A DNA stretch of 64,000 nucleotides from Halanaerobium hydrogeniformans (lineage in GTDB: Bacteria; Bacillota; Halanaerobiia; Halanaerobiales; Halanaerobiaceae). The position numbers and the translations under genes were made by a program. The stretch spans positions 1,860,001 through 1,924,000 of the forward strand of contig NC_014654.1 of assembly GCF_000166415.1 (NCBI RefSeq), read 5' to 3'. Below the pieces are notes generated by a model that saw only the letters and a list, made by a program, of their open reading frames with translations, ran no database searches and was not told the origin of the DNA. The first letter of the stretch is position 1. The number at the start of each line of letters is the position of its first letter. Below are positions 1,007 through 52,401 of this stretch, piece after piece.

Positions 1007-1855
1007 TCACTCCTGATCTCCTGAGTCCAAATATCTGGCTGCACATTTGTGGGCCAGTTTTCGAACTCTTTTAATAAATCTTGTTCTTTCAGTAACACTA
1101 ATAGCTCCTCTTGCATCTAATAAATTAAAATTATGAGAACACTTGAGTGTATAATCATAAGCTGCAAGTGTTAAATCAGCTTCAAGACAATTTTCTGCCT
1201 CTGCTTCATAAATATCAAAAAGTTTAAATAATCTATCGATATCTGCTATTTCAAAATTATAGGCTGATTGTTCAACTTCATTTTGATGATAAATATCTCT
1301 ATATTTTACTCCTTCTACCCAGGTTAAATCATATACATTGTTTACTTCCTGTAAATACATGGCAATTCTTTCTAATCCATAGGTGATTTCTACTGTTACA
1401 GGATCTGCTTTAAAACCTCCAACCTGTTGAAAATAGGTAAATTGTGTTATTTCCATACCATCAAGCCAGACTTCCCAGCCAAGTCCCCAGGCTCCAAGGG
1501 TTGGTGATTCCCAGTTATCCTCAACAAAACGTATATCATGTTTTTTAGCGTCTATTCCTAATGCACCCAAACTGGCTAAATATATTTCCTGTATATCATC
1601 AGGAGAAGGTTTCATAATTACCTGATATTGAAAATATCTCTGTAGACGATAGGGATTATCACCATAACGTCCATCAGTTGGACGTCTACAGGGTTGTACA
1701 TAAGCAGTATCCCATCCTTCCGGGCCAAGTGATCTTAAAAAAGTTGAAGGACTCATCGTCCCTGCTCCAACTTCAATATCATAAGGCTGTTCTATCACAC
1801 AACCCTGATCACTCCAAAATTTATCCAGAGCAAAAATTATTTCCTGGAAATTCAT
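1007..1855 (-). CDS. glyQ: Glycyl-tRNA synthetase alpha subunit
   Basis: Catalytic-chain partner of GlyS, 282 aa, close to the usual 290-300 residues. Class II synthetase features are seen: [14 protein letters not shown] at the N-terminus, [14 protein letters not shown] (residues about 23-36), and the [19 protein letters not shown] segment (about 54-72). The start ATG 1855 is preceded by GAGAGGAAGTG. The gene has its own promoter between it and recO and lies just behind the recO terminator. glyQ-glyS therefore forms a separate two-gene unit, although it is collinear with the era-recO cluster as in Bacillus. No T-box fits in the 94 bp upstream. Confidence 0.97.
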
Positions 1856-1886
1856 AAATACACTTCCTCTCTTTTAACATTTTTCT

Positions 1887-1915
1887 ATTTAAAATTAATT
1901 AAAATCATTTCTCAA
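1887..1915 (-). promoter_or_regulatory. Predicted sigma-A promoter of glyQS
   Basis: On the minus strand TTGAGA (1915-1910), 17 bases, then TTAAAT (1892-1887). The -35 box starts right in the T-tract of the recO terminator, so the terminator and the next promoter are packed end to end. Prediction by eye only; the -10 is a weak match. Confidence 0.45.
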
Positions 1916-1942
1916 AACAAAACCTTATCCTTTAGGACAAGG
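1913..1942 (-). terminator. Rho-independent terminator after recO
   Basis: Minus-strand stem CCTTGTCC / GGATAAGG with loop TAAA (1942-1923), followed by TTTTGTTTT. It begins 8 bases after the recO stop and insulates glyQS from the upstream operon. Confidence 0.75.
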
Positions 1943-1949
1943 CCAAAGT

Positions 1950-2717
1950 TTAGCTATTCATATTCCTTAGGGTATATAGAAAAGATAAAGACTTTGGATT
2001 TAAATCAAGGTGATATGCCAAAAAATTTTCTGTTAGCTCCATTAATTTATTTGTCAGAGGCTCAGAAAATTGTTTGGCTTTCAATATCGTTATTTTAGCA
2101 AAAATAATTTTATACAGAGCTCTCATCTGATTTAATGAAAAATCGCTATAATCAAATTCTGCCTTGCTAAGACACTCTCTACAAATTGAGCCACCTTCTT
2201 TTACCCCAACCGCAGTAAAACCTTTTAAATTTATTTTTTCCCCGCAAACTGTACAGCTTTCAATTTCTGGTTTAACCCCCAGCAAAAGCAATAATTTTGC
2301 TTCAAAAACTGTTAAATAAAATAATAGTTCATTTTTTTCTGCTTTATTCATATATTCCAAGATTACAGCCAGCAGAGAAAATAATGCTTGATCTGCTTCA
2401 AATTCCAATCCTGCTCTTTCAATGTATTCAGCAGCCACACTGGCATGTGCCATATAGTCTAAATCCTCACGAAGTTTCGAATTCATGGCAATAGATTCAA
2501 TATGATTTATTTTAGCCAAAGATCTGCCTTTATATAAGGTAAAGTGGTGATGGCTAAATGGTAAAACAAGACCTGAGCGTGACTTATTACCCTTTCGTGC
2601 CCCTCTGGCAACTGCTTTAACTTTACCATTTTCTTTTGTATACAGGGTAATAAGCCTATCTGATTCACCTAAATCAAATTGTTTAAGCACGATAGCTTCG
2701 GTCTCAAATGTAGCCAA
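1950..2717 (-). CDS. recO: DNA repair protein RecO
   Basis: RecFOR-pathway recombination mediator that helps load RecA onto SSB-coated single-stranded DNA. At 255 aa it has the family's usual size. The N-terminal OB fold starts ETEAIVLKQFDLGESDRL. The C-terminal part holds a four-cysteine zinc site (SCTVCGEK near residue 155, SICREC near 180). The start codon is TTG at 2717, with GGAG about 10 bases upstream; no ATG alternative fits. It is the last gene of the phoH-era-recO run and is closed by a hairpin terminator. Confidence 0.95.
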   Translation of the reverse strand: MATFETEAIVLKQFDLGESDRLITLYTKENGKVKAVARGARKGNKSRSGLVLPFSHHHFTLYKGRSLAKINHIESIAMNSKLREDLDYMAHASVAAEYIERAGLEFEADQALFSLLAVILEYMNKAEKNELLFYLTVFEAKLLLLLGVKPEIESCTVCGEKINLKGFTAVGVKEGGSICRECLSKAEFDYSDFSLNQMRALYKIIFAKITILKAKQFSEPLTNKLMELTENFLAYHLDLNPKSLSFLYTLRNMNS

Positions 2718-2734
2718 ATTAAGTCAACTCCAAT

Positions 2735-3418
2735 TTAATCTTTCTCATCAGTCACTATAGTAACTCCAGAGCTGGCACCTATTCTATTTGCTCCAGCATC
2801 GAGCATATCTAGTGCTTCTTCAAAATTATGAATACCACCTGATGCTTTAACTCCTACATCACGGCCAACTGTTTTCCTCATTAGACTGACATCTTCTATT
2901 TTAGCTCCATAACTACCAAAACCTGTTGAAGTTTTAACAAAATCTACTCCAGCATCTTTAGCTATTTCACAGGCCTTTGTAATTTCTTTTTCATTTAAAT
3001 AACAGGTTTCCAATATAACCTTGACGATAATATCAGAAGTTACTCCTGCAGTTTTAGTAGCATCAACTACTGCTTTAATGTCGGATTTGAAGATTTCTAA
3101 TGCTCCAGATTTGAAAGCTCCAATATTCATAACCATATCGATCTCTTGAGCTCCATTTTTAATAGCATTTCTTGTTTCATATGATTTAACTTCAGTGGTG
3201 CTTGCACCCAGTGGAAATCCAACTACTGTACAAACTTTAACTGAACATTCTTCTAAAAGCTTTGCTGCTAAAGGAACATAAATAGGGTTAATACATACAG
3301 AGGCAAATTCGTGTTCTTTAGCCTCTTTACATAATTTTTTAATGTCATCCACTGTTGCAGTGGGATCTAAATTAGTATGGTCAATCATTTTAGCCATATC
3401 TCGCGGTTTGATCGCCAT
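2735..3418 (-). CDS. deoC: Deoxyribose-phosphate aldolase
   Basis: Cleaves 2-deoxyribose-5-phosphate to acetaldehyde and glyceraldehyde-3-phosphate in deoxynucleoside catabolism. 227 aa from ATG 3418. A GTG at 3430 is in frame, but its first base is part of the AAGGAG ribosome binding site, so the ATG 11 bases downstream of that site is preferred. Class I aldolase segments are seen: IDHTNLDP near the N-terminus, VGFPLGA, EIDMVMNIG, the Schiff-base lysine in DFVKTSTGFG, and VKASGGI near the C-terminus. It sits with cdd (cytidine deaminase), consistent with pyrimidine nucleoside salvage. Confidence 0.96.
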   Translation of the reverse strand: MAIKPRDMAKMIDHTNLDPTATVDDIKKLCKEAKEHEFASVCINPIYVPLAAKLLEECSVKVCTVVGFPLGASTTEVKSYETRNAIKNGAQEIDMVMNIGAFKSGALEIFKSDIKAVVDATKTAGVTSDIIVKVILETCYLNEKEITKACEIAKDAGVDFVKTSTGFGSYGAKIEDVSLMRKTVGRDVGVKASGGIHNFEEALDMLDAGANRIGASSGVTIVTDEKD

Positions 3419-9731: not shown

Positions 9732-11976
9732 TATTATCTCCGCCTTTCATCTCTTTGAGTAGTTTTTCTGGATATTCTACTCTCTGATGATAAATACCGG
9801 TTAAAACTTTGACAAAACTCTTTGTGATTTTATCTAAATCCCTTAGAGTTAAATCGGATTTATCTAATTGATTTTCAATTAATTTGTCTTTAATTAAGCC
9901 CCTGACAAAGCCTTCTATTCGATCATGATTATTTTTATTAAAGTTTTTAGAACGTACGGCTGCTTCTGTTATGTCTGCTAACATAATTATGGCTGCTTCT
10001 TTACTTTGAGGTTTAGGTCCATCATAACGAAAATCTTTTTTTTCGATATCATCATGCTTATTTTCCTGTATTGCCTGTTGATAAAAATAAGAAATTAAAT
10101 TTGTGCCATGGTGCTCTTTTATAATATCAATAATTTTACCGGGAATCCCATACTCTTCTGCCATTTCAACTCCATCTTTTACATGTGATTTAATAATTAA
10201 AGCACTTAAATTTGGAGATGTTTTATCATGAGGATTTTCAGCTCCAAAATGATTTTCTGAAAAAAAGTAAGGCCTTTTTAATTTACCAATATCATGATAA
10301 TAAGCAGCAGCTCTAGCAAGTAAAGAATCTGCTCCTACATCCTCTGCAGCTGTTTCAGCGAGGTTACCAACAATAATACTATGATGATAAGTACCAGGAG
10401 CTTCTACTAACATTCTTTTTAAAACAACCTGGCTTGGATTAGATAATTCTAATAATTTGACAGAAGATGTCATATCAAATAAGTCTTCTAAATAAGGTAA
10501 AAATCCATTAGCTAAGACACCTACTAAAAGACCATTTGTTATTCCTCCACCAACTGCCCAAATCATATAATTCCAATTTGGACTCTCCTGTAAAAGTGAT
10601 AAACCACCAATTAAAAACATTAGTACAACACTAATATTAAGACCAGCCCTTATTATATCTCCCCGTTCCTTTACTTTGCTGACACTATAAATAGCAACCA
10701 GACCACCAAGCAAAGAAGTTAGAACTATATTATAGTTCATATCATATATAGGAGCAATTAACATGCTTAAAAACAAGGTAGTGACAAGAGCAGTATCAGT
10801 ATCAATTAATATAGTTAACAAAATTGACGCCATAGCAGTAGGTACAAGAAAATCTACAAATGGATTTTGAAAAAAACTAAAAGTTTTTGCAAGCAAAAGA
10901 ACAATAACAATTAAAATCTCAATTAATAATAATTGACTATTATCTTCCCAGATATTTTTTTTGTATTTATGAAAATAAAAAGCTAATAGAAGAACAATAA
11001 TAAAGGCAATTAATATCCTTCCAAATATATTGAAATAATTAAGCTCTGACCTCTGCAGACCCAGTCTTTCTAAAATTTCTATGTCAGCTTCAGTTACAAC
11101 ATCACCCTGGCGAACAATAATTTCTCCCTGACGCACTGTATTTTGAATAGGCTCAATTTGGCCAACTGCTTCTTGGCGTCTGGCCTCGGTTGCTTCCGTG
11201 TTTAAAAACATATTTGCTTCCAGAGTATTTTCTGTTATTTCAGCGAGAGCAAGTCTTTTATCTCTTGAAATGTCCATTTCCATAGCTGACTGACTGATAT
11301 TATCTCTAGCGCTGGATAACTCAGCTGGTAAAATTCTCCTGGATAATGCAGAAATCAATAAATTATCTGCCCGTGTTCTTATATCCTCTAATTCTTCTTC
11401 TGGCAGAGTAATTAACGTTTCCAAATTTTCATCAGAAATTTCAAAAGTAATCTCATCTTTAATATTTGTCATTATTAGATTTATATCTTCTGAATCTAAA
11501 CTTCCTAATTCTTCCTCAGAAAAGCTAAGTTCTGGCTCAGAACCATCAGTTAAAGCTTCAAATTCTTCTTCAACCTGTTGGTCTGGACTTTCAAGTGCAG
11601 CCAATTTTTCTATTAGTACACTTTCTCGTTCTTCAATAATTGAATCAAATAACAAATCTATTCGATCTCTAATATCTCGCTCCACTGTACCATCTTCTTC
11701 ATAAACTCTTGGGGCACTCTCCTCTGCTCTCTGTCTTAATTCTTCAGTTCTTGATTCATCTATAAATGTAATAGTTCGAGGAGCAGTTATATTGCTTTGA
11801 CTCACCTGTCCAGGACGTAAATCTACCTGGTCAGGGATTAAATCTATGCTGAGAGTTAAGGCGATTATAATAAAAAATAGAACCCCCCAAATTATTTTAT
11901 ATGTCCTGTTAGAAAAGTTTAAATACTTTTCTCGCCATTTACGGAGTCTTATCCTTATTTCTTTCATTAATCTCAT
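9724..11976 (-). CDS. pgpH: 7TM-HD family cyclic-di-AMP phosphodiesterase (PgpH/YqfF type)
   Basis: 750 aa membrane protein. One N-terminal helix is followed by a large extracytoplasmic 7TMR-HDED domain (about 50-300), a seven-helix block (about 310-500), and a cytoplasmic HD phosphohydrolase domain with YYHDIGK near residue 560 and downstream KSHVKDG and EHHGT histidines. The family (PgpH of Listeria, YqfF of Bacillus) hydrolyses the second messenger c-di-AMP, which controls potassium and osmolyte uptake. That role is known for homologues and inferred here. Start ATG 11976 follows GGGAG. The gene sits in the conserved phoH-yqfF-ybeY order. Confidence 0.93.
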   Translation of the reverse strand: MRLMKEIRIRLRKWREKYLNFSNRTYKIIWGVLFFIIIALTLSIDLIPDQVDLRPGQVSQSNITAPRTITFIDESRTEELRQRAEESAPRVYEEDGTVERDIRDRIDLLFDSIIEERESVLIEKLAALESPDQQVEEEFEALTDGSEPELSFSEEELGSLDSEDINLIMTNIKDEITFEISDENLETLITLPEEELEDIRTRADNLLISALSRRILPAELSSARDNISQSAMEMDISRDKRLALAEITENTLEANMFLNTEATEARRQEAVGQIEPIQNTVRQGEIIVRQGDVVTEADIEILERLGLQRSELNYFNIFGRILIAFIIVLLLAFYFHKYKKNIWEDNSQLLLIEILIVIVLLLAKTFSFFQNPFVDFLVPTAMASILLTILIDTDTALVTTLFLSMLIAPIYDMNYNIVLTSLLGGLVAIYSVSKVKERGDIIRAGLNISVVLMFLIGGLSLLQESPNWNYMIWAVGGGITNGLLVGVLANGFLPYLEDLFDMTSSVKLLELSNPSQVVLKRMLVEAPGTYHHSIIVGNLAETAAEDVGADSLLARAAAYYHDIGKLKRPYFFSENHFGAENPHDKTSPNLSALIIKSHVKDGVEMAEEYGIPGKIIDIIKEHHGTNLISYFYQQAIQENKHDDIEKKDFRYDGPKPQSKEAAIIMLADITEAAVRSKNFNKNNHDRIEGFVRGLIKDKLIENQLDKSDLTLRDLDKITKSFVKVLTGIYHQRVEYPEKLLKEMKGGDNND

Positions 11977-34139: not shown

Positions 34140-35096
34140 GTGAAGAGCTTGCAAATTATAACAATTTCTCGCCAAACAGCAAGTGGAGGTAATGAAATTG
34201 CTGAACAACTTGCCAAAAGATTAGGTTTTAAATTAATTAATCGTGATTATGTTTTAGAAAAATGGCTTCCAGATGTAGCTGATGACCATCAATTACACAT
34301 GTTAAAACAGAGTCGCAAATTTTACAACCGTAGGATTGAGCAAAAATATGGACTAGAAAAAGATCTTACTTTCGCTGGTTTTATTGAAAATAGATTGAGA
34401 GATTTAGCTAAAGAAAAAAATCTACTCATTGTAGGCTTGGGAGCTCAAGTTATATTCAAAAATCATTCTAGAGCAATTCATATTAAAATAGTTGCTTCCG
34501 ATGAATATAGAGTTAATAAAATTTCAAAAAAATATGGTCTTAAAAAGGAGCAGGCTGAAAGAACTATTGAACTTAGTGACCGCAAAAAACGCCGCTATGT
34601 TTGGCAGGTTCATGAAGTAGACTGGTCTGACCCAACATTATACCACTTAAGTATTAATAGTGCTGGTATCAATCTTGAGCAGGCCTTAAGTATATTAAGC
34701 AACTTAGCAGATTTTAAAAAAGAAAGCCCAGAAGCTCTTAATGATAAAAATAATGAAGAAGAACAGAAAAAAGAGCATAATTTTGCTCATCCCAGTGAAA
34801 AAGAATTTGCTAAAATACTCGATATGCATCATATAAAATGGGAATATGAACCAACTGAATTTCCTCTTGAATGGGATGCTGAAGGAAATATAAGCATGGG
34901 ATTTCGACCAGATTTTTATCTAACCGAATATGACACATATATTGAATTAACGACTATGAAAAGAAAATATGTAACTGAAAAAAATAAAAAAGTTAAACTA
35001 CTTAAAGAAACTTATCCCCACATAAATGTAAAAATTGTTTACAAAAAAGATTTTCACACTTTAGTTGAAAAATTTAACTTTAATAAAGGAGAATAA
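34140..35096 (+). CDS. Cytidylate-kinase-like domain fused to a PD-(D/E)XK-like domain
   Basis: 318 aa, two-domain protein. Residues about 1-195 resemble the cytidylate-kinase-like family: P-loop region ISRQTASGGNEIAEQLAKRLGF, then DYVLEKW, LIVGLGAQVIF, and SDRKKRR...VDWSDPTLYHLSINSAG. A charged linker (about 200-218) leads to a domain of about 100 residues with HPSEKEFAKIL (helix with Glu), GFRPDFYL and YIELTTMKRK, arranged like a PD-(D/E)XK nuclease core (E, D, ExT). From memory, this second domain is found next to or fused with HPRT-like proteins in other phyla. The substrate and activity are unknown. The first P-loop glycine is replaced by Thr-Ala. Start GTG 34140 (GAGGGAA upstream) or TTG 34149. 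A 3-bp gap separates it from the HPRT-like gene. Confidence 0.75.
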   Translation: MKSLQIITISRQTASGGNEIAEQLAKRLGFKLINRDYVLEKWLPDVADDHQLHMLKQSRKFYNRRIEQKYGLEKDLTFAGFIENRLRDLAKEKNLLIVGLGAQVIFKNHSRAIHIKIVASDEYRVNKISKKYGLKKEQAERTIELSDRKKRRYVWQVHEVDWSDPTLYHLSINSAGINLEQALSILSNLADFKKESPEALNDKNNEEEQKKEHNFAHPSEKEFAKILDMHHIKWEYEPTEFPLEWDAEGNISMGFRPDFYLTEYDTYIELTTMKRKYVTEKNKKVKLLKETYPHINVKIVYKKDFHTLVEKFNFNKGE

Positions 35097-35099
35097 AAA

Positions 35100-35630
35100 A
35101 TGGAGACAGACAAAAATTTAGGCAAAATAATAATTAGTGAAAAAGAAATCTCAGAAAAAGTAGAAGAATTGGCTACTCAAATTAATAAGGATTATAAGGA
35201 CAAAGAAATTATAATTGTAAGCATTCTCAAAAGTTCTCTCTATTTTATGACAGATTTGACCCAAATGCTTGAAATTCCTTTAAAATTAGATTTTCTAGAA
35301 ATCAGTCATTACAGTGATGAAGATGATTCTGGAATAATCAGGGTTACAAGAGATTTAGAATTCAGTATTGCAAATAAGGAAGTCCTTATAATAGAAAACA
35401 TTATAAGGACCGGGCTTACACAAAGTTATTTACTTAGAAATTTAAAATCCAGAAATCCAAAAAGTTTAAATATTTGTACTTTCCTCAATAATACAGAGAA
35501 AAAATTAGTAGAATTACCTGTTCATTATAGTGGTTTTGAAGTTAAAGATGAATATTTAGTCGGGTACGGTTTAGATTATAAAGAAAAATATAGAAATTTA
35601 CCCTATATTGCAGAATATAATTTTAATTAA
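35100..35630 (+). CDS. HPRT-like protein with degenerate PRPP-binding motif
   Basis: 176 aa with the fold-defining segments of hypoxanthine-guanine phosphoribosyltransferase: [30 protein letters not shown] and the C-terminal [17 protein letters not shown]. The active site is altered. The PRPP motif usually reads VLIVEDIID[ST]G; here it is [11 protein letters not shown], so the second acidic residue is Asn and the catalytic Asp is Arg. The LKG loop is LKS, and the DKP-like segment is NNT. The protein is probably not a normal purine-salvage enzyme. It is the second gene of a tight pair with the kinase/nuclease-like fusion (3-bp gap) and overlaps the end of copA by 4 bases on the other strand. 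Confidence 0.8.
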
Positions 35631-38728: not shown

Positions 38729-39718
38729 CTAAATTGTTGCTGTCATAACAGCTTTTATTGTATGCATTCGATTTTCTGCCTGGTCAAAAACTTTAGAATA
38801 TTTACTTTCAAATACTTCATCACTAACTTCCATTTCTGTAATCCCAAATTCATCTAATATCTTCTGTCCATTTTCAGTCTCACTGTTATGATAAGCTGGT
38901 AAACAATGCAAAAGTATAACTTCATTGTTTCCAGTATTGTTGATCATATCCATATTAACTTGATAATCTTTTAAAAGTTCAATCCGTTCTGCAAACTTTT
39001 GCTCTTCTCCCATAGACACCCAGACATCAGTATATATAACATCGGCATTTTTTACTCCCTCAACCGGATCAGCTGTCAGTTCAATTTTAGAACCCGACTT
39101 TTCAGCTAGAGCCTCACATTCCGCAAGCAAATCTTTTTCAGGCCATAATTTCTCAGGAGCTACAACAGTATAATTAATTCCCATTATGGCAGAACCGACC
39201 ATTAAAGAATTAGCCATATTATTTCTTCCATCACCGGTATAGACAAGATTTATCCCTTTTAGTTTAGAAAAGTTTTCTTTGATAGTTAAAAAATCTGCTA
39301 AAATTTGTGTAGGATGAAAAAGATCTGTTAAACCATTCCAGACTGGAACTCCTGCATGCTCTCCTAAAATTTCTACGGTTTGATGCGAATATCCTCTGAA
39401 CTCTATCCCATCAAACATTCTGCCTAAAACTCTAGCAGTGTCAGCAACAGTTTCTTTTTTTCCTAATTGTATATCATTCTTACCCAGATATTCAGTACTT
39501 CCACCTTCATCTTTAGCTGCAACAGCAAATGCACAACGAGTTCTAGTAGATGGTTTCTCAAAAATCAAAGCAATATTTTTCCCGGTCAATAAATCACCTT
39601 TAATACCTGTCCTTTTTTTTGATTTAAGTTCTGCTGATAAAGTTAATAAATAATCAATTTCTTTTTGTGAATAATCTTTCAGCTTTAAAAAATTTCTCCC
39701 TTTTAGATTAAAAGCCAT
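38729..39718 (-). CDS. argF: Ornithine carbamoyltransferase
   Basis: 329 aa. Carbamoyl-phosphate motif STRTRCAFA (about 57-65), then [14 protein letters not shown] (about 137-150) and HCLPAYH (about 272-278, ornithine loop Cys). It makes citrulline from ornithine and carbamoyl phosphate in the arginine pathway; catabolic use cannot be excluded from sequence. Regulation by an upstream T-box with a proposed Arg specifier argues for a biosynthetic role. No other arg genes are adjacent apart from the GNAT. ATG 39718 follows AAGGAGGAG. Confidence 0.94.
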
Positions 39719-39777: not shown

Positions 39778-40015
39778 AAAAACCCCGCTCTCCTATTTAT
39801 AAGAGACGAGGAATTACCCGTGTTACCACTCTAGTTGTCAGCATAAACTTAAGAACTGACCACTCAAAATTTAACGCCATTTAGCGTCTCTTCCTACTTA
39901 TTTCAGAAGAGATCCTCCAGGTGCGTTTCAAAATGAATTTTAGACCGAACTCACAGCTACTTCGGCTTGCTTTACTAAAAATACAAATTTACTTTCCTTT
40001 CCCAGGATATAATAT
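39778..40015 (-). ncRNA. T-box riboswitch, proposed tRNA-Arg specific, upstream of argF
   Basis: The minus-strand T-box sequence AGAGTGGTAACACGGG (39834-39819) is followed by a terminator stem CCTCG-CTCTT / GGAGAG-CGGGG and TTTTTT (39814-39778). Upstream are AGTA-type motifs and a stem I region. The triplet CGC (39925-39923), in the context GAAA-CGC-ACC, is the best specifier candidate and codes Arg. The TGGT core pairs with a tRNA ending ACCA, as does the tRNA-Arg at 52.3 kb. Uncharged tRNA-Arg would favour read-through into argF. The specifier is assigned by eye. Confidence 0.85.
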
Positions 40016-52130: not shown

Positions 52131-52272
52131 AAAAAAACCACTTCTAAGTAGAAGTGGTAACTCACAACTACTTATCTTTCAGGACACACCTGTTGGATTT
52201 AGCACCGGGCAGTATAATCTGCTGGTTGCTGGGTTTCAAAGGGCCAATTCCCTCCACCTCTCTTGATAAGAA
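52131..52272 (-). promoter_or_regulatory. SAM-I (S-box) riboswitch
   Basis: The minus-strand aptamer begins CTTATCAAGAGAGGTGGAGG and continues with the core GGCCC...GAAACCCAGCAAC and the later GGTGCTAAATCC and GATAAG elements. The terminator is CCACTTCTA/TAGAAGTGG plus seven T (52157-52131). SAM binding stabilises termination, so metF-metH expression falls when SAM is abundant. This is a textbook match to the class. Confidence 0.96.
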
Positions 52273-52326: not shown

Positions 52327-52401
52327 TGGTGCCCCCGGTAGGAGTCGAACCTACGCACACGGCTTCGGAGGCCGTTGCTCTATCCACTGAGCTACGGGGG
52401 C
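52327..52401 (-). tRNA. tRNA-Arg(CCG)
   Basis: Complete cloverleaf on the minus strand. The acceptor is GCCCCCG / CGGGGGC, the discriminator is A, and the 3' CCA is encoded. The D-arm is GCTCAGTGGATAGAGC, the anticodon stem is ACGGC/GCCGT with loop CTCCGAA (anticodon CCG at 52368-52366), and the T-loop is GGTTCGACTCC. It reads the rare CGG codon. Confidence 0.97.

Follow-up and report, generated by a model that had tools for sequence, protein, structure and literature searches.

An ExT variant of the PD-(D/E)XK fold encoded beside a diverged HPRT paralogue in Halanaerobium hydrogeniformans and other bacteria

Among the described proteins closest to the locus analysed here are two groups. The first is T7 endonuclease I (PF05367) with its phage and homing-type relatives. 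In T7 endonuclease I, residues E20, E35 and E65 have catalytic roles. The substitution D55A inactivates the enzyme, and the D55A protein still binds junctions (PMC9547003). In another family of PD-(D/E)XK nucleases, COG4636, the lysine has migrated into the next helix (PMC551604). The second group consists of proteins with a PRT fold. In human hypoxanthine phosphoribosyltransferase (HPRT), D137 is the general base. Lys165 of the same enzyme contacts the purine O6 (PMC2228302). In PurR, PyrR and perhaps ComFC, the last being a DNA-handling protein, PRT folds without normal catalysis act on nucleic-acid binders as switches that respond to PRPP or a nucleotide (PMC9005727).

We analysed a window of 64,000 nucleotides (positions 1860001-1924000) from the 2.6-Mb single-contig genome of Halanaerobium hydrogeniformans. 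As an earlier note on this DNA had described, an open reading frame at 34140-35096 (+ strand, as are all the features of P0001 and of the HPRT gene after it given coordinates below) encodes a protein of 318 residues, P0001. Its reading in the window begins with GTG and stops at 35094-35096; TTG at 34149 may be the true start, as the fourth codon often encodes Met in relatives; this has no bearing on the argument. P0001 consists of a kinase-like half (CK) and a nuclease-like half (EN), and an HPRT gene follows it. The reading we favour, with a probability of about 0.4, is that the two proteins form a module: the HPRT-like subunit would bind PRPP or a nucleotide and would control EN, which would act on nucleic acid in a metal-dependent manner.

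Fold and active site of the C-terminal domain

EN covers residues 213-318 (34776-35093). The earlier note had likened this half to a PD-(D/E)XK core with ExT in place of ExK, and both profile matches and a confident model of EN alone bear that out. Residues 210-303 matched Phage_endo_I (PF05367) at an E value of 9e-4 and 19.3 bits, under the 29.1-bit cut-off for membership; EN also matched chains of T7 endonuclease I (3cae, E 2e-3) and, searched alone, PHROG endonuclease and Holliday-junction-resolvase families (1e-7 to 4e-6). The AlphaFold2 model of EN alone (pLDDT 85, pTM 0.77) has the order a-b-b-b-b-b-a-b-a. The structures closest to it are mostly PD-(D/E)XK proteins (I-Bth0305I, Z 8.2; Bax1, 8.0; VRR_NUC, 7.8; Hjc, 7.0; Vsr, 6.8; TnsA, 6.2), with Z values of 6-8 that are middling and would be weak alone, and the sequence matches share the weight. 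The model of full-length P0001 was poor (pLDDT 54.5), and only its C-terminal part was relied on. No confident match of the domain to a characterised non-nuclease family appeared. Taken together, sequence and model indicate that EN has the core fold of the PD-(D/E)XK superfamily and its PD...ExX motif.

We then counted active-site residues in one alignment of 50 distinct ExT homologues and 24 ExK relatives. The helix Glu, E220 (34797-34799, EN column 8), aligns with E20 of T7 endonuclease I and is present in 50/50 ExT and 23/24 ExK sequences (one gap); E237 of YEP (34848-34850, column 25) aligns with E35, likewise at 50/50 and 23/24. D258 of the PD motif (34911-34913, column 46) aligns with D55, and E269 of ExT (34944-34946, column 57) with E65, each found in every sequence of both sets (50/50 and 24/24). 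T271 (34950-34952, column 59) occupies the place of the catalytic lysine, K67 in T7 endonuclease I: it is Thr in all 50 members of the HPRT-linked clade and Lys in all 24 ExK relatives. The ExT clade thus carries the acidic residues E20, D55 and E65 of T7 endonuclease I throughout and nowhere its ExK lysine. The motifs picked out earlier are not chance resemblances, since E, E, D, E and T are retained in every one of the 50 homologues.

Two lysines in the helix that follows might bear on this loss. K281 (34980-34982, column 69) is Lys in 50/50 ExT sequences and not Lys in the ExK relatives, with a one-residue doubt in register, since the alignment near a three-residue insert is uncertain and the column adjoining K281 is usually Lys in the relatives. 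K284 (34989-34991, column 72) is common to both sets (49/50 ExT, with one gap; 19/24 ExK). K281 is our candidate for a relocated catalytic lysine. Like EN, the COG4636 nucleases lack the Lys beside the last acidic residue and conserve one in the next helix (PMC551604); they are a different family, however, with mostly a hydrophobic residue where EN has Thr, and EN has its association with HPRT. Under an alternative placement of the gap the ExK lysine would align with K274 (E+5, column 62), a column that is not conserved (K28, R10, N7, D4, E1), and K274 was dropped as a general substitute.

EN shares its fold, motif order and four acidic residues with T7 endonuclease I/PF05367 and the phage and homing-type relatives, and relatives of this kind on viral contigs are 27-41% identical to it over the domain. 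It differs from them in being cellular and HPRT-linked, in having ExT in every member and in a three-residue insert after the E strand. In a tree of 75 sequences the ExT group formed one side of a 100/100 branch, opposite the phage ExK relatives. The simplest reading of these sequences is that the catalytic Lys was lost once, through replacement by Thr, with the acidic cluster left intact. Among 2.9 million viral contigs scanned, 28 relatives turned up, none with ExT (the position was ExK or unreadable), and the idea that viruses carry the ExT module was dropped. Two further resemblances were seen: a UvrD-type helicase ORF (1498-3273 of locus L025) whose start resembles EN, with EHLGV at the ExK place, and an EN-like stretch, possibly an intein endonuclease, within a gene annotated dnaE in Miltoncostaea oceani (NZ_CP064357.1, 8423-8644).

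A change from catalytic Lys to Thr in 50/50 sequences also fits a domain that has ceased to cut. EN would then be a catalytically dead nucleic-acid binder docking on DNA or RNA, its HPRT-like partner would be a sensor of PRPP or purine nucleotides in the manner of PurR and PyrR, and the pair would control purine genes or structured DNA. Regulators with a PRT fold are established (PMC9005727), and junction binding outlasts catalysis in the dead D55A form of T7 endonuclease I (PMC9547003). Yet a domain kept for binding only would be expected to lose some of its acidic residues, and all four persist over about 19 families; there was also no conserved riboswitch upstream in the scanned loci, and no operator was identified. 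We regard such a regulator as unlikely, and rank it next after the HPRT-gated nuclease.

Gene pairing and distribution

The HPRT ORF (35100-35630) begins 3 bp past the P0001 stop, and by direct reading its ribosome-binding site, AAAGGAG (35085-35091), lies within the 3' end of the P0001 gene. The flanking genes, patatin-like upstream and a copper-type ATPase downstream, are both on the opposite strand, so P0001 and HPRT stand alone as a probable two-gene operon.

This arrangement is general. In 51 of 52 ExT-clade loci an HPRT gene either follows immediately on the same strand or is fused, and a contig end truncates the one exception (G189); counted by family label, the pairing spans about 19 families. 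The association proposed in the earlier note therefore held. Its wording 'other bacterial phyla' is borne out here by a single record, that of Thermomicrobium roseum, our only case outside the Bacillota, in which one fused gene, annotated hpt, encodes EN followed by HPRT. The two-gene loci have both genes on the same strand in 29/29 cases, and in 10 of the 29 the stop and start overlap by 4 bp, so translation of EN and HPRT is probably coupled. Because of this near-constant pairing, the fusion and the uniform orientation, we consider the two genes one functional unit. EN is its most constrained part, with the top identity in 62 of 64 comparisons (a count that includes redundant loci) and mean identities of 65% for EN, 54% for HPRT and 44% for CK.

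In regions of at most 16 kb, drawn from 18 families, no third gene recurred beside the pair; the other neighbour clusters there proved to be either common ABC-transporter-type genes or shadows of the pair on the antisense strand, and were set aside. Control of the module by a riboswitch was also dropped, as the window and nine further loci (the long loci scanned, L118-L126) had no Rfam match directly upstream of it. Rfam elements were seen elsewhere: in the window, a T-box leader (RF00230, 126 bits; 39799-40012, -) just upstream of an ornithine carbamoyltransferase-like gene on the same strand (38729-39718), and a SAM riboswitch (52169-52272, -) near a tRNA-Arg (ccg; 52327-52401, -); and, near the module of G222 but not upstream of it, a PYLIS_3 element and a ZTP riboswitch (566-665 and 10303-10387, -, of L123). 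The window also encodes a small protein of the Se_S_carrier family (PF11823; 32159-32473, -) between genes for a uridine kinase and a patatin-like phospholipase.

Of 398 evenly sampled Bacillota genomes, 34 gave strong matches (>150 bits), five only weak ones (<50 bits) and none scored in between. The module is mostly single copy, and G070 (L040, L046) and G269 (L141, L142) each have two EN-HPRT pairs. A short fragment in a Methanosarcinaceae MAG (L007, contig PXAV01000037.1) is 96% identical to the kinase half and consists of a kinase fragment alone; judging by its sequence it is probably Halanaerobium contamination. A scan of 197 archaeal genomes from the phylum of G235, run without a positive control and hence showing little, gave no match.

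A patchy presence of this sort (34/398 strongly positive), joined to nuclease-like and nucleotide-binding domains in a layout common among defence systems, raises the question of an anti-phage or anti-mobile-element system with a nucleotide-sensing subunit and a nuclease effector. But defence-gene neighbours do not recur, the usual copy number is one, and PADLOC gave only a 22-residue match to a PD-(D/E)XK model, which is not a full-length match, and none for HPRT. We think a defence role quite improbable. Among open-access papers we found none on the combination of kinase-like, nuclease-like and HPRT parts.

The HPRT paralogue and the kinase-like half

The module HPRT (176 aa) resembles HPRT/HGPRTase (TIGR01203) in its fold, in the TG of its PRPP loop and in its score, 181.6 bits against a curated cut-off of 150. 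It differs in being a second copy, located beside EN, and in the residues described below. The housekeeping HPRT of H. hydrogeniformans lies at positions 2165740-2166243 of the contig. A housekeeping copy was present in 31 of 32 module-bearing genomes (the exception, G417, is 90% complete), and three genomes without the module had the housekeeping copy only. In a tree of 30 module and 30 housekeeping sequences one branch (100/98) split the two kinds, which indicates that the module HPRT is an old paralogue.

Using human numbering, carried over through the conserved motifs EDxxDTG and LLDK and an alignment to solved HPRTs, we compared two functional positions. The catalytic Asp of the PRPP loop (human D137) is present in 30/30 housekeeping copies and has been lost from 12 of the 30 module copies (D18, G6, N3, R2, K1). 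The Lys that binds the purine O6 (human K165) is kept in 30/30 housekeeping copies and in only one of 30 module copies, with Asn in 16. The copy in the window has changed at both positions, with R103 (35406-35408; ENIIRTG vs EDIIDTG) in place of the Asp and N131 (35490-35492) in place of the Lys. The PRPP-loop Gly is retained in all 30 module copies. From these residues the module HPRT appears to be a protein of changed function and not a spare copy, and some module HPRTs may still be enzymes because about 60% keep the catalytic Asp. The partner is thus HPRT-like, as the earlier note had it, and at the same time a diverged paralogue, usually without the O6 Lys, often without the catalytic Asp and accompanied by a normal HPRT.

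Most module HPRTs still score over the HGPRTase cut-off, which is what a duplicated HPRT engaged in ordinary purine salvage, and placed by chance in an operon with an unrelated protein, would show. Adjacency in 51/52 loci, a fused gene and an O6 Lys lost from 29/30 module copies while kept in 30/30 housekeeping ones all run against it, and with the pairing conserved and HPRT residues lost this explanation is largely refuted, leaving it a very small probability.

The kinase-like half is less constant. CK comprises residues 1-192 (34140-34715), and residues 6-174 belong to Cytidylate_kin2 (PF13189; E 2e-35, 123 bits vs a cut-off of 28); P0001 does not reach the equivalog cut-off for CMP kinase (TIGR02173, 44.1 vs 102.1 bits). 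Its P-loop region, ISRQTASGGNEIA, has no Walker-A Lys, and the P-loop itself reads SRQTASGGNEIA. At the position after SGG, where that Lys would stand, 34 homologues have E15, D11, Y4, N2, K1 and G1. The solved, uncharacterised relatives 3hdt and 3fdi (PF13189), whose match covers the N-terminal half full-length, also have a P-loop without the Walker-A Lys; unlike CK, which is fused to EN here and missing in some members, they are stand-alone proteins. CK is degenerate in family f101 (L125, L126) and absent from Thermomicrobium. Kinase activity is doubtful, because the Walker-A Lys is absent and CK is degenerate or lost in some members. A charged, variable linker (34716-34775), with low pLDDT at residues 193-212 and poor conservation, connects CK to EN. 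Of the three-part module first proposed, the nuclease-like and HPRT-like parts remain: these form the constant core, and CK is not part of it.

The same residues bear on a metabolic enzyme set, in which the HPRT paralogue would move ribose-5-phosphate onto a non-standard base, CK would phosphorylate the product and EN would act as a specificity or scaffold domain. A base-binding Lys changed mostly to Asn, with the PRPP loop largely kept, is what altered base specificity would lead one to expect, and 18/30 module HPRTs have the catalytic Asp. In the other lineages, though, that Asp has been swapped for G, N, R or K, CK has no Walker-A Lys and in some members has degenerated or disappeared, and EN, not HPRT, is the most constrained part. 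We judge such a set improbable.

A possible link between purine nucleotides and nucleic acids

In the HPRT-gated nuclease that we favour, EN would have descended from a nuclease like T7 endonuclease I, and the HPRT paralogue would have given up normal purine salvage. The HPRT-like subunit would bind PRPP or a nucleotide, with base transfer absent or altered, and would switch EN, which would bind, and probably still cut, structured or damaged nucleic acid with Mg2+. K281, perhaps with K284, would replace the lost ExK Lys. CK, which precedes EN in most members, would be dispensable and could form a dimer interface or take in a second nucleotide signal. Beyond a conserved pair with altered active sites, these steps are what we infer from the fold, the pairing, the single ExT clade, the retained acidic metal-site residues and the HPRT residue losses.

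Four acidic residues invariant in 50/50 sequences are unneeded in a dead domain, and their invariance counts in favour of this reading. A switching role for the HPRT-like subunit is favoured because PurR and PyrR use a PRT fold as a switch responding to PRPP or a nucleotide, and such a fold occurs in ComFC, whose PRPP loop, DDIITTGTTL, also has no Asp at the place of human D137. These proteins resemble the module in having a PRT fold linked both to nucleic acid and to the binding of PRPP or nucleotides (PMC9005727); they differ in not being HPRT paralogues and in having Zn-finger, wHTH or RNA-binding parts, not a nuclease fold. Against the HPRT-gated nuclease stands the absence of the ExK Lys from every member, for which the proposed substitutes are candidates. 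The catalytic Asp retained by about 60% of module HPRTs also counts against it, as does the finding that no third gene hints at a process. The more specific proposal is an undescribed module that links purine status to DNA or RNA processing: its HPRT paralogue would sense PRPP or a nucleotide and would control a PD-(D/E)XK nuclease with a PD...ExT...K(next helix) site. This proposal is tentative, and we lean against it as a whole. An RNA-end-directed role, as once suggested, is speculation; nothing we found points there.

The sequences suggest selection both on the metal-site residues of EN and on the tie of EN to the HPRT paralogue. We caution against annotating these genes as plain hypoxanthine phosphoribosyltransferase and cytidylate kinase. 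Textbooks present HPRT as a salvage enzyme, and here an old paralogue of it, in about 19 bacterial families, stands beside the normal copy and is tied to a partner with a nuclease fold. Should the link prove functional, cells would have here a new route that couples purine nucleotides to nucleic-acid handling, and EN would offer a test of whether a PD-(D/E)XK site can work with Thr in place of the catalytic Lys.
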